This document shows positions 20,501 through 54,538 of a DNA stretch of 64,000 nucleotides, one piece after another. Source of the DNA: Helicobacter sp. 11S02629-2. Its GTDB lineage: Bacteria > Campylobacterota > Campylobacteria > Campylobacterales > Helicobacteraceae. The notes under the pieces are model-generated. The model saw nothing but the letters and a program-made list of their open reading frames with translations. It was not told where the DNA came from and made no database searches. The DNA lies in contig NZ_MLAN01000002.1 of assembly GCF_002272875.1 (NCBI RefSeq), positions 124,001-188,000 of the forward strand, written 5' to 3'. Within the stretch, counting starts at the first letter, position 1. Each line of letters starts with the position of its first letter. Both the position numbers and the translations under genes were made by a program.

Positions 20501-20831
20501 GGCAAGGGCTTTTTAAGAAGGGACTAAAAACTTGTAAGGTTAATGTTTCTTGAGAAACACTGACTATCTAAGAGATCTTTTTCTTTCTTAATAATGATGG
20601 GAAGTAAAACTAATATAAATGCATAAAAACATTTTTTATAGAATCTAAAAATACATAATTGCCATGCTATCTTTTAGTCTCCTAGCACAATGACATGTTA
20701 TGTGATAAGCCATATAGCCTTTTTAGCGCTTCTATTTACGTTAACCTGAACTTTAATCTAAATTTGAACTTTTAAAAACATCCTCTATAAGCTAAAATCA
20801 CAAAATGATATTTTAAAAAAGGAGGCACTTA
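20501..20831. other. intergenic region with a palindrome, before the glycosyltransferase
   Basis: No gene is seen. It holds the palindrome TGTTTCT-TG-AGAAACA at 20544-20559, which recurs beyond the glycosyltransferase. A GGAGG ribosome binding site lies at its right end (20821-20825). The promoter of the glycosyltransferase must lie here but no clear box was found. Confidence 0.45.
20544..20559. repeat. palindrome, left copy flanking the glycosyltransferase
   Basis: Seven-base arms TGTTTCT and AGAAACA flank TG. An almost identical palindrome lies at 22553-22572 on the other side of the glycosyltransferase gene. No T-run follows, so a terminator role is not supported. Confidence 0.55.
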
Positions 20832-20844
20832 GTGATAGAAGGCA

Positions 20845-22263
20845 GTGATCGCTTCAAGGGGGGGGGGGGGGGGAAATCTCTCACCTAGAGAGATGAACTT
20901 AGATAATCTAGATAATAGTAGTGCAAGCAGCACATTAAAGCAGGCATCTTTATTGGATAAGGCTAGATTAGAAGAAAGCAAGATTGAAAGTGGTGTTAAA
21001 AGCAAGGCTAAAGAGATAAGATTTAAAAACTTAGATCTAGCTAGTCCTAGCTTTATAGAATCTTGTAAAGAAGCCTTGCTAGAGTATAACAAAGCCTTAG
21101 AGCATCCAAGTGCCTTAGTTTCTCTAATAGTCTCAAACTATAATAATAAAGCCTATATAGATGAGTGTATAAATAGTCTAAGAGAGCAAAGCTTTAAGGA
21201 GCTAGAAATCATCATAGTTGATGATGCTTCAAGTGATGATAGTTTGACACTATTAAAAAAGCACGCAGATGAAGATAAGCGTATAAGACTTTTTGAAAGC
21301 AAGCAAAGAAGTGGCCATCCAAGTCTTGCTAGAAACTATGGTGTAAGCATAGCTAAGGGTGAGTATATAGCCTTTGTAGATAGTGATGACTACCTTGCAC
21401 TAGACTGCGTTGAAAGCCATCTTAAAGCTATAGAATCTAGTGATGCAGATATGGCTTACTGTGTTAATAATATCTATAATGAAGCTAAAGATGAATACAC
21501 TCACAGTCCTTTTAGAGCAAGACATGCTAGCAAAACAGGTGCTTTAGTATTTAAAGCTAGTGAGGCTAACTCTAACTTTTGGCGCCACTTTAACGCGGGT
21601 GCTTGCTTTAAGATGTATAAAAAAGAGTTTTTTCTAAAAGAAGGACTTTGCTTTCAAGACTGTGACTTTGAAGATACAGATGTTTCTTTTATAGCCTTTG
21701 CTTGTGCTAAAAAGATCTGCTTTGTGCCTAGACTTCTCTACACAGCTAGGATGAATAAGCGTTATGGGGTAAATAGAGGCAATATGGATAGCACCATAGC
21801 TAAGCTTTCAAATCCACTAGATGGCATAAGGATCATAACTAGGTCTTATGAAGTCATAAAACAAAGAGGTATAAAGGGACTAGAAGAGGGTTTGCTTTAT
21901 GCTTACTTTGATGTTTGTACTTACTATCTAAACTTTTTTACAGAGGAATCTAATCTTTTTGATAGTCTAAGGGAAGCTAGGGAGCTACTAGCTAGTGTGC
22001 TTAGAGATAACCCAGATATAAGATACATCTACTTTAAGTCAGGTGAGAAGAAGCTTTTATTTATGCTTTTAGATGCAACGCCTTTAAAGTTTATAGTAGA
22101 GTGCATGGTGTCTATAAGATGTGGTGCTTATGGGAGTTTAAAGGAACGCTTGCTTAATGGCATAGATAAAAGTAAATATCAAAACTATCCTAAGCCAATG
22201 AAGCTAATTATATATTCATATAAGATTTTTATTAGACTATTAAGGCGTAAGTCTTGCTTTTAG
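20845..22263 (+). CDS. family 2 glycosyltransferase with a poly-G tract at its start, probably phase-variable (OFF as sequenced)
   Basis: The GT-A domain starts near residue 90: VSLIVSNYNNKAYIDECI, IIIVDDASSDDS, ARNYGVSIAKGEYIAFVDSDDY with the DXD-like DSDD. A long C-terminal part follows. It would add a sugar to a surface glycan; the acceptor is unknown. A run of 16 G lies at 20858-20873. The only start with a good ribosome binding site is GTG 20832, six bases after GGAGG. From it the 16-G frame ends at a TAG within about 20 codons. A run of 15 or 18 G would join it to this frame. Alternative in-frame starts are GTG 20845 and ATG 20893, both with weak ribosome binding sites. Confidence 0.85.
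   Translation: MIASRGGGGGNLSPREMNLDNLDNSSASSTLKQASLLDKARLEESKIESGVKSKAKEIRFKNLDLASPSFIESCKEALLEYNKALEHPSALVSLIVSNYNNKAYIDECINSLREQSFKELEIIIVDDASSDDSLTLLKKHADEDKRIRLFESKQRSGHPSLARNYGVSIAKGEYIAFVDSDDYLALDCVESHLKAIESSDADMAYCVNNIYNEAKDEYTHSPFRARHASKTGALVFKASEANSNFWRHFNAGACFKMYKKEFFLKEGLCFQDCDFEDTDVSFIAFACAKKICFVPRLLYTARMNKRYGVNRGNMDSTIAKLSNPLDGIRIITRSYEVIKQRGIKGLEEGLLYAYFDVCTYYLNFFTEESNLFDSLREARELLASVLRDNPDIRYIYFKSGEKKLLFMLLDATPLKFIVECMVSIRCGAYGSLKERLLNGIDKSKYQNYPKPMKLIIYSYKIFIRLLRRKSCF
20858..20873 (+). repeat. homopolymeric G tract (16 G), slippage-prone switch
   Basis: An uninterrupted run of 16 G lies within the first codons of the glycosyltransferase. Runs of this length vary by slipped-strand mispairing in Helicobacter and Campylobacter and switch surface-glycan genes on and off. 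It is the longest homopolymer in the window. Confidence 0.93.
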
Positions 22264-22666
22264 TAAGTCTATTGCTACATGCTTGCTATGGCTTGATCGC
22301 ATAAGCTAGCGTTAAGATGTCGAAGTTAAGATTACTGCACTAGGCTAGATGCCTTCTAGTTAAAATTAATACTTAATTTACATCATATTTTTATTTGACT
22401 ACTACATTAAGGCTGTATTGAACTACGGATTACCATAGGGTTAAAGTAGTCTTGTAATTACTATGTGGAGATTTCCACGTTGTGCGTACCATACTCCTAA
22501 TGTTAAGGCATAAGAATCTAAAAATTTAATATTTGAGATTGACTGACACTTTAATGTTTCTCAAGAAACATTCTAGCCTTGCAAATGCGAAGTCACTCCT
22601 TTTAGTTATCATTTAGTCACTGCATCGCATTAGTGTAAGCATCTAGATAAGACAAAAAGGAGAAGT
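22264..22666. other. intergenic region between the glycosyltransferase and flavodoxin
   Basis: No open gene is recognisable in these 403 bases. They contain a small hairpin (GTGGA-GATT-TCCAC, about 22465-22478), the right-hand palindrome at 22553-22572, and a GGAG ribosome binding site for the flavodoxin at the end. The rest shows nothing I can support. Confidence 0.4.
22553..22572. repeat. palindrome, right copy flanking the glycosyltransferase
   Basis: Nine-base perfect arms AATGTTTCT and AGAAACATT flank CA. It matches the palindrome at 20544-20559 with the two central bases in inverted orientation. It lies 95 bases upstream of the flavodoxin ATG, so it could also be an operator for that gene. 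Confidence 0.6.
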
Positions 22667-23167
22667 ATGAAAAACATAGTAGTTTATGACAGCCTAACGG
22701 GTAATACAAAAAAGCTAGCAGAGGCTATCGCTAAAAATCTTAACTGTGAGCTTAAGTGTGTAGGAGACTGTGAGGGGGAAAGCTTTGAAAACTATAAGCA
22801 AATCATCTTTGGATTCTATATAGATAAGGGGTTTATGGGAGTTGATGCAGAAAGGTTTACACAAAAGATTAGAGGTAAAAAAGTTGGCATATTTTATACG
22901 CTTGGAGGGGATCCAAAAAGTGATCGAGCTAGCGCTTTGAAAGAAAGGATAAAAGAGTTTTTTAAGGCTAATGATAATGAGATAGTTAAGGTTTTTTACT
23001 GTCAAGGAGCTATAAGTGATATACAACTTGAAGCTGCAAGAAAGAGGGCACTTGCTGAAGGAAGTCCTATAACGCCTCAAAGGGAGGTCTTTTGGAAGGA
23101 AGGTAAAAAACATCCTAATGACAAGGATGTGCAAGAAGCAGTAGCTGCTTTTAAAGACTTTAAGTAA
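22667..23167 (+). CDS. flavodoxin-family protein
   Basis: This 166-residue protein begins with the FMN phosphate-binding loop of flavodoxins (YDSLTGNTKKLAEAIA). FGFYIDKGFM and the third loop FYTLGGDP follow. A C-terminal extension (EGSPITPQREVFWKEGKKHP) is absent from classic electron-transfer flavodoxin, so this is a flavodoxin-like reductase or carrier rather than FldA. An AAGGAG ribosome binding site precedes the ATG. The physiological partner is unknown. Confidence 0.8.
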   Translation: MKNIVVYDSLTGNTKKLAEAIAKNLNCELKCVGDCEGESFENYKQIIFGFYIDKGFMGVDAERFTQKIRGKKVGIFYTLGGDPKSDRASALKERIKEFFKANDNEIVKVFYCQGAISDIQLEAARKRALAEGSPITPQREVFWKEGKKHPNDKDVQEAVAAFKDFK

Positions 23168-23207
23168 GATTAATAGAATCTTTTAGTAGCTAAGTGATGA
23201 CTTTGGC

Positions 23208-23227
23208 AGCCTTAAGCAAAGGCTTTA
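23208..23227. terminator. weak hairpin between convergent flavodoxin and aroK genes
   Basis: AGCCTT and AAGGCT pair around AAGCA, followed by only a short T stretch. It sits in the convergent gap, where a bidirectional terminator is expected. Confidence 0.35.
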
Positions 23228-23237
23228 AAAAAGGCTT

Positions 23238-23759
23238 TTAAGGGAGTTTGTAGCTGCTTAAAAGCTTTAATATGCAATCTTTAACTACTAAGGGTTCTAA
23301 GTTGCCATCTACTATAAACTTAGCTTTCCTATATATAGAATCTCTTTTTTTAAAAAGCTCTAAAGCTATGGCTTCGTTTTTAAATAAAGGTCTTGAAGCA
23401 TCACTCCTTAGTCTTTCTTTTATGACTTCAAAACTAGTGTCTAGGTAGATGTTTACACCTAAGGGTTTTGTGTCATTAAAACAGGGCATGCCACCTCCTG
23501 TAGCTATGACTAGTGAGTGGTCATTAGAGTGTGCATCTATAAACATCTTTTCTAGACCTCTAAAGTAGCTTTCACTTCTTGCGGCAAAGATCTCTTTTAC
23601 ACTCATATTAAGCTTAGATTCTATCCAAGCATCACTATCTAGAAAGGTGTAGTTTAACTCACTTGCTAGGAGCTTTCCTACCGTGCTTTTTCCACTTCCC
23701 ATAAAACCTATAAGTACTATATTTTCTTTACTGAAGTGTGATTTTGTAGGTGTTGGCAT
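23238..23759 (-). CDS. aroK: shikimate kinase
   Basis: This enzyme phosphorylates shikimate at the 3-hydroxyl in the chorismate pathway. The 173-residue protein has Walker A GFMGSGKSTVGK (residues 18-29), FLDSDAWIESK for substrate and Mg contact, and ATGGGMPC. The start at 23759 gives a 12-residue extension before the core and overlaps the upstream AMIN-domain gene by 32 bases. The next-door AMIN gene is a neighbour of aroK in H. pylori as well, so the pair is a conserved unit. Confidence 0.95.
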   Translation of the reverse strand: MPTPTKSHFSKENIVLIGFMGSGKSTVGKLLASELNYTFLDSDAWIESKLNMSVKEIFAARSESYFRGLEKMFIDAHSNDHSLVIATGGGMPCFNDTKPLGVNIYLDTSFEVIKERLRSDASRPLFKNEAIALELFKKRDSIYRKAKFIVDGNLEPLVVKDCILKLLSSYKLP

Positions 23760-53372: not shown

Positions 53373-54449
53373 TTACATATATTTTCTATATATATTGACC
53401 ATACCAACTAGTAAATCTCTTAATTTTTTTGGCTTTACATCTGAACTCATAAGATCAAAATTGCAACCTTCGAACAAGGTAAGTTGGCTTCTGCTAGTTT
53501 TTGAAATCTTTATATCTTCATCTGAATTAGCTAATTCATACCAAGACAAGAATTTCCTAGCTGAAGTTGTCATCCAATCACTTTTAAAGTAGATTCCCTT
53601 TGCTGCGATAGCCATACCATTTTTTGCTGATCCAAAAATCGTAGAATCTACTAGAGCCCACATATGGTCAGTTGGGTCTGTAAAGTAGTTTTCTATGGCA
53701 TTGAGCTTTTTGTTTGTTGGCACCTCATTACCAGCATAAAAGCCACTAGAGCTAAAATTTTTGATAAGTCCTATCATTTCCATCATCGCTATTTCTTTAC
53801 AGTCACTTTGCCCATCACTACTATCATCATACTCATTATCATACTTAATTTGCTCTGGTTCAGATTCTATACTTTTGTATGTTTTTGCATATTCGCCAGT
53901 ATGTTGTTTATTTCCGTTCATATATGCTCGTATATCAGGATCTGAATAGCTAATCATCGATTCTAAGGATTCTGCCAAGTCATACATATCTACTTCGCAT
54001 ACTTTGGCTACTACTTTATAACAGTCTCCTAATTCAGCCTTAGAGAAACGAAAGCGATTTTTTATTCTCAATAAATTCATTTTATTGATTGGTGCAATTA
54101 TGTCACTGGCTCCCATAGCTAAAAATAGCAATACACCATAAGTAAACATTATTTTTATTTTTTCTCTATCTGTCCTAAATGAAAGAATTTTGTCAAATAT
54201 ATTACCCTCTAATTGCCCGATTTTATTATAAATAGAAATCATTTCATTCTCATTAGACCAAGCATCAAAACTACTATCTACATCCACCATAATTTCTGCG
54301 ATTAATCGTGTATGTCTTTTACTCAAGACATGTTCATTGCTAGCTATGTAGACGAGCGTCCATAATGTATCTTCTCTATCATTTTTTTCTATATGGTTGT
54401 TAATTGCCTCATTTGCTACGCCTACTATCAAATCTGTAAAAAAACCCAT
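53373..54449 (-). CDS. hypothetical protein, TerB-like N-terminus and strand-rich C-terminus
   Basis: I do not recognise this 358-residue protein as a named family. The N-terminal 170 residues are helical and reminiscent of TerB-type bundles (DTLWTLVYIASNEHVLSKRH). An acidic linker follows (NEYDDSSDGQSD). The C-terminal 120 residues contain DSTIFGSAKNGMAIAAKGIY and KFLSWYELAN, which resemble a bacterial PH-like domain. The start was set at ATG 54449 with a GGAG ribosome binding site, not 54464. Its codon use differs from its neighbours, and a C14 tract lies 75 bases upstream, so it may be acquired and switchable. Confidence 0.65.
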   Translation of the reverse strand: MGFFTDLIVGVANEAINNHIEKNDREDTLWTLVYIASNEHVLSKRHTRLIAEIMVDVDSSFDAWSNENEMISIYNKIGQLEGNIFDKILSFRTDREKIKIMFTYGVLLFLAMGASDIIAPINKMNLLRIKNRFRFSKAELGDCYKVVAKVCEVDMYDLAESLESMISYSDPDIRAYMNGNKQHTGEYAKTYKSIESEPEQIKYDNEYDDSSDGQSDCKEIAMMEMIGLIKNFSSSGFYAGNEVPTNKKLNAIENYFTDPTDHMWALVDSTIFGSAKNGMAIAAKGIYFKSDWMTTSARKFLSWYELANSDEDIKISKTSRSQLTLFEGCNFDLMSSDVKPKKLRDLLVGMVNIYRKYM

Positions 54450-54524
54450 TATGTAGCTCTCCATTTTATTTGTTGTCTATAAACATCAATATGATTAAAT
54501 GATGATTACCGTGGGTTTAGGTTA

Positions 54525-54538
54525 CCCCCCCCCCCCCC
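54525..54538 (-). repeat. homopolymeric tract (14 C on plus, 14 G on minus), upstream of the hypothetical gene
   Basis: It lies about 75 bases upstream of the ATG of the minus-strand gene, in its promoter or leader. I found no start codon upstream that would place it inside a coding frame. Changes in tract length would alter promoter spacing rather than reading frame. Confidence 0.9.

Follow-up and report, generated by a model that had tools for sequence, protein, structure and literature searches.

The switching of glycan genes through changes in tract length, which an earlier note on this DNA had called well known, is a standard mechanism for Helicobacter and Campylobacter (PMC2823697, PMC3068675, PMC6321876). 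In H. canadensis 29 such tracts have been described, all of them length-variable in reads, and the translational phase-variable genes of that species include the (G)11 glycosyltransferase HCAN_0101 as well as an out-of-frame class (PMC2823697). A 5' poly-G tract likewise sets the frame of a glycan-modifying gene in Campylobacter jejuni Cj1295 (PMC3068675) and in the Campylobacter phasome (PMC6321876), and H. pylori has LPS phase-variable transferases (PMC1599737).

The locus described here lies within 64,000 nucleotides of Helicobacter sp. 11S02629-2 (the window) and very probably represents a translationally phase-variable glycosyltransferase gene of family GT2, a reading derived from sequence comparison. 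It resembles the H. canadensis genes in having a 5' coding poly-G tract, with G on the sense strand, whose length sets the frame of a presumed surface-sugar enzyme; it differs in being another gene in another species, and in that length variation was seen there in reads whereas the lengths here are known from assembled sequence (PMC2823697). The Campylobacter tracts share the 5' position and the effect on frame but peak at 9-10 G, against 12-16 here (PMC3068675, PMC6321876). With the H. pylori LPS transferases (PMC1599737) the likeness lies in a slippery tract within an LPS-type sugar transferase gene and in the tract-bearing GT10 and GT11 fucosyltransferases that the source genome also carries. 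A difference is that 119 other genomes of the family contain no close relative of this GT2 (E below 1e-60).

Reading frames around the G tract

The tract consists of exactly 16 G at 20858-20873, as the earlier note had read it, and begins 26 nt after a GTG at 20832-20834 that is the probable start of the gene (these features, and all others of the gene given below, lie on the + strand). Direct reading also bore out the ribosome binding site previously assigned to this GTG, a Shine-Dalgarno sequence AAGGAGG at 20819-20825 separated from the codon by a 6-nt spacer. Its duplex with the 16S tail ACCUCCUUU has an energy of -11.5 kcal/mol, and when duplex energies were ranked against the best starts of 58 window genes this value surpassed 97% of them.

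To follow the frames we recomputed them for tract lengths of n = 8 to 21. When n is a multiple of three (9, 12, 15, 18 or 21 G), GTG 20832 is in the enzyme frame and opens a protein of 474-478 aa. At 16 G it yields an 18-aa peptide closed by a TAG at 20886-20888, and at 17 G a 21-aa peptide whose TGA overlaps the ATG at 20893 (ATGA). The arithmetic put forward earlier, in which 16 G leads to the TAG and 15 or 18 G joins the enzyme, was right in every number. An alternative GTG at 20845-20847 is in the enzyme frame at 16 G and there opens the full 472 aa, so that the GT2 reading frame spans 20845-22263, with GTG 20832 as its start at tract lengths of 3k. The in-frame ATG at 20893-20895, read directly 4 nt past the TAG, is a possible leaky start or reinitiation site. 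Both alternatives had been called weak, and their duplex energies agree: -2.0 kcal/mol for GTG 20845, weaker than about 93% of the 58 window genes, and -3.8 kcal/mol at a 13-nt spacing for ATG 20893, weaker than about 84%. The frame table and the Shine-Dalgarno ranking together indicate that tract length sets the enzyme frame relative to a plausible start.

A tract of this length is far beyond chance. Under an order-3 model, G runs of at least 16 are expected about 3e-7 times per window, and the G-run distribution drops to 5, with 16 as the next value; with the G16 and one C14 set aside, no G run in the window exceeds 5 and no C run exceeds 6. A simple-sequence tract beyond chance in the 5' coding region is the mark of genes whose translation is phase-variable through simple sequence repeats. 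A promoter scan upstream of the gene found sites no more frequently than in shuffled sequences.

Homologous copies of the gene

For comparison we used the sister species Helicobacter sp. 13S00401-1, which came from a Central Asian tortoise (PMC5566214). Its homologue (L002, the same gene as L063) begins with AAGGAAAATAG-ATG followed by 30 nt and then G15; it is out of frame at this length (21 aa) and would be in frame at 13 or 16 G. Between its tract and the catalytic domain there are only TTG codons, with neither an ATG nor a GTG. A paralogue in the source genome (L003/L044) has an ATG, then A12 and G8, and is in frame with 458 aa. The tract thus occupies the same 5' position in homologue and paralogue, with differing lengths and frame states. 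Since an SD or ATG also stands upstream of the tract in these two, three copies place the start upstream of the tract, and the strength of its Shine-Dalgarno together with the sister homologue's only good start lends support to GTG 20832 as the likely initiation codon.

These comparisons bear on the view that ATG 20893 is the constant start of the enzyme, with the tract in an untranslated leader where it would be neutral or would tune expression through RNA structure or spacing. This ATG is in frame upstream of the GT2 domain, and the residues before about 90 fall outside the Pfam match. We nevertheless regard a constant start at this codon as very improbable: it leaves the near-perfect Shine-Dalgarno at GTG 20832 unexplained, the sister homologue has no ATG between tract and domain, and in the paralogue an SD-ATG stands upstream of an in-frame tract.

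A block of 2.7 kb containing the glycosyltransferase and a flavodoxin gene (20574-23257) is missing at the matching sister site, where an ammonium transporter adjoins shikimate kinase; the blastn alignment of L073 with L071 ends at window position 20573 and restarts at 23258. The sister homologue is instead syntenic with the paralogue L003, both lying between thiol-peroxidase-like and YceI-like genes (gene identities assigned by eye). Contig 40 holds the relic of a third copy (L021:1486-1661; C40:40086-40261), in which 74 bp of upstream sequence (91%) are followed by a 10-bp gap and the gene's final 94 bp (86%), the middle being gone. Relic and paralogue together indicate that the gene was copied within the genome, one copy being left without its middle. 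A plasmid search gave no match.

The encoded enzyme

Residues 93-263 match PF00535 (Glycosyltransferase family 2) at 4e-36, which places the enzyme in GT2, and its relative in the PDB is 5hea GalT1 (6e-27). The motifs VDDAS and DSDD are conserved across the window gene, the sister homologue and the paralogue. No NCBIfam equivalog (PglI, WcaA, TuaG and others) scored above its cut-off, the best reaching 97.8 bits against a cut-off of 423, and the sugar and acceptor therefore cannot be named. An AlphaFold model on three sequences had a mean pLDDT of 44.6, with residues 1-87 under 50, and was too poor for a fold search. The gene stands alone, outside any glycan cluster. The likely role of the enzyme is to attach a sugar to a surface glycan; LPS or flagellin as the target would be a guess.

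The relic on contig 40 demonstrates that copies of this gene do decay, and one could accordingly propose that the window gene is itself a decaying pseudogene, its frameshift a permanent loss. This can hardly be credited, as the 456-codon frame past the tract is intact, the residues of the catalytic domain are conserved in both homologues, and an uninterrupted G16 run can revert, unlike a fixed lesion.

Expression state of the assembled clone

On the preferred reading of a phase-variable gene, ribosomes would start at GTG 20832 behind its near-perfect Shine-Dalgarno, and replication slippage in the G tract would alter tract length within the living population. At multiples of three the enzyme would be made, and at other lengths translation would end within about 20 codons. 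With 16 G the main start of the assembled clone is out of frame, and the gene would be off or nearly off.

The earlier claim that the gene is OFF here stands in so far as 16 G puts the main start out of frame. It is only probable, being a snapshot of a draft consensus in which GTG 20845 is in frame and ATG 20893 is close by. At 16 G, leaky production of some enzyme is possible, starting at GTG 20845 or through reinitiation at ATG 20893. The ATG/GTG fallback is absent in the sister homologue, and such a leaky start is therefore not a conserved feature.

The stops of the off frames abut ATG 20893, a point that goes beyond the previous account and that could suggest graded expression. Expression would then be high from GTG 20832 at lengths of 3k; at 16 G (3k+1) it would be low and depend on GTG 20845 or on reinitiation at ATG 20893, and at 17 G (3k+2) it would be low and depend on ATGA-coupled reinitiation. 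With 16 G, GTG 20845 does give the whole frame; the leader stop lies 4 nt before ATG 20893 at this length and overlaps it at 17 G, and in the paralogue L003, too, one off frame closes with a TGA that overlaps an in-frame ATG. Set against this, both alternative starts have the weak Shine-Dalgarno energies given above, an ATG followed by A often yields such an overlap by chance, and the arrangement is not conserved in the sister L002, which has no ATG between tract and catalytic domain. A literature search on multi-start phase-variable genes found nothing to cite for graded expression. We consider graded expression unlikely, and equally so a three-level switch of this kind, whose tract would tune the enzyme dose instead of turning the enzyme off.

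The tract length could also be an assembly error, and the sequenced clone might in fact have an in-frame gene with 15 or 18 G. Such long runs are error-prone in short-read drafts, and the source genome (1.88 Mb) is in 61 contigs. In data of the MiSeq/SPAdes type, the length given for such a run may be off by one in either direction. The study of the sister strain used Illumina MiSeq and SPAdes and obtained about 59 contigs per genome (PMC5566214). An error of this kind would affect the exact length alone and leave the long tract standing, and the locus carries no specific sign of one; we judge it improbable, though less so than a fixed start or a pseudogene.

To the considerations against a phase switch we counted the two alternative starts GTG 20845 and ATG 20893, the absence of promoter signal above chance, the rarity of the start codon, GTG being the rarer initiator, and the solitary position of the gene outside any glycan cluster.

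Tracts elsewhere in the genome

Beyond the locus considered by the earlier note, tracts of this class are spread across the genome. A pattern search found 23 G/C tracts of at least 8 and 15 of at least 12, as compared with 14 of at least 12 in the sister genome, and G tracts of at least 12 are present in 116 of 121 genomes of the family. Elsewhere in the source genome most of the genes that carry them encode enzymes of surface sugars, namely GT10 and GT11 fucosyltransferases, a GT9/GT6 protein, another GT2 and a GT4 that is broken into two frames. The sugar genes are accompanied by a fusion of a DNA methylase with a type I specificity domain and by a Cache-domain receptor, likewise in two frames. 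The window GT2 fits this set of tract-bearing genes.

For ten of the 15 tracts of at least 12, the homologous sister gene has a tract at the matching place, with lengths differing by 0-3 G. Their lengths (source and sister) are 14 and 14 G in L030/L061, 16 and 16 in L031/L062, 14 and 14 in L032/L068, 14 and 13 in L038/L055, 12 and 13 in L040/L058, 13 and 13 in L041/L067, 15 and 13 in L045/L060, and 16 and 15 in the window gene and L063; L035/L056 has two tracts, of 14 and 13 G and of 16 and 13 G. Between paired tracts the offset from the gene mostly differs by anything from a few to some tens of bases, and the paired proteins are mostly 52-72% identical. Tracts that mutate fast yet hold their position agree with what would be expected under selection for switching.

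Several tract genes have the tract close to the 3' end, a C-terminal class described in H. canadensis (PMC2823697). L041, L031, L032 and L043 (the GT9/GT6 protein, GT10, GT11 and GT2) carry G13-16 near the 3' end and are candidates for C-terminal switching. The GT10, GT11 and GT6 domains suggest that this Helicobacter may make Lewis or blood-group-like glycans. The methylase fusion (L045:1429-4668, 1080 aa) contains in-frame G15 and G9 tracts, with G13 in the sister orthologue, and is a candidate phase-variable methylation system. The second long tract of the window, C14 at 54525-54538 (G14 on the minus strand), lies upstream of a 363-aa gene (53373-54464, minus), 60 bp from its ATG. Pfam gave no match for this gene, and the promoter or leader position of the tract makes it a candidate for transcriptional switching.

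Over-represented and depleted motifs

Separately from the tracts, the motif TAGAWTCTA (core AGAATCT/AGATTCT) is strongly over-represented, with 46 occurrences in the window against about 1.4 expected and 1166 in the genome against 119 for a reversed-pattern control. Its distribution in the family is patchy by genus (1239 in the sister, 843-1016 in g3, 1046 in g4, 588-994 in g11 and 13-19 in g2). The sites are proportionate in coding and intergenic DNA (83% coding) and randomly spaced, with a strong frame bias (GAA TCT, GAT TCT). The motif appears uptake-sequence-like or recombination-like, and our literature search found no paper naming it. GACTC and GAGTC are depleted in the window (6 and 11 occurrences, where about 29 of each would be expected) and GAATC/GATTC are enriched; this pattern may come from restriction avoidance or from the TAGAWTCTA motif.

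Significance

The phase variation proposed earlier is strengthened by tracts at the same place with other lengths and frames in homologue and paralogue, and by the conservation of most long tracts across two species; the switch itself we infer. Through the addition of a sugar by the enzyme, such switching would create cell-surface diversity within a population. The locus is a well-conserved, ordinary example of a known mechanism and leaves the understanding of that mechanism unchanged. It extends tract-based surface-sugar switching to a lineage of Helicobacter with a probable association with reptiles (the nearest relative with a name came from a tortoise). The occurrence of tracts at the same place in two species, in switch genes mostly only 52-72% alike, argues for long-term selection on switching and not for accident.
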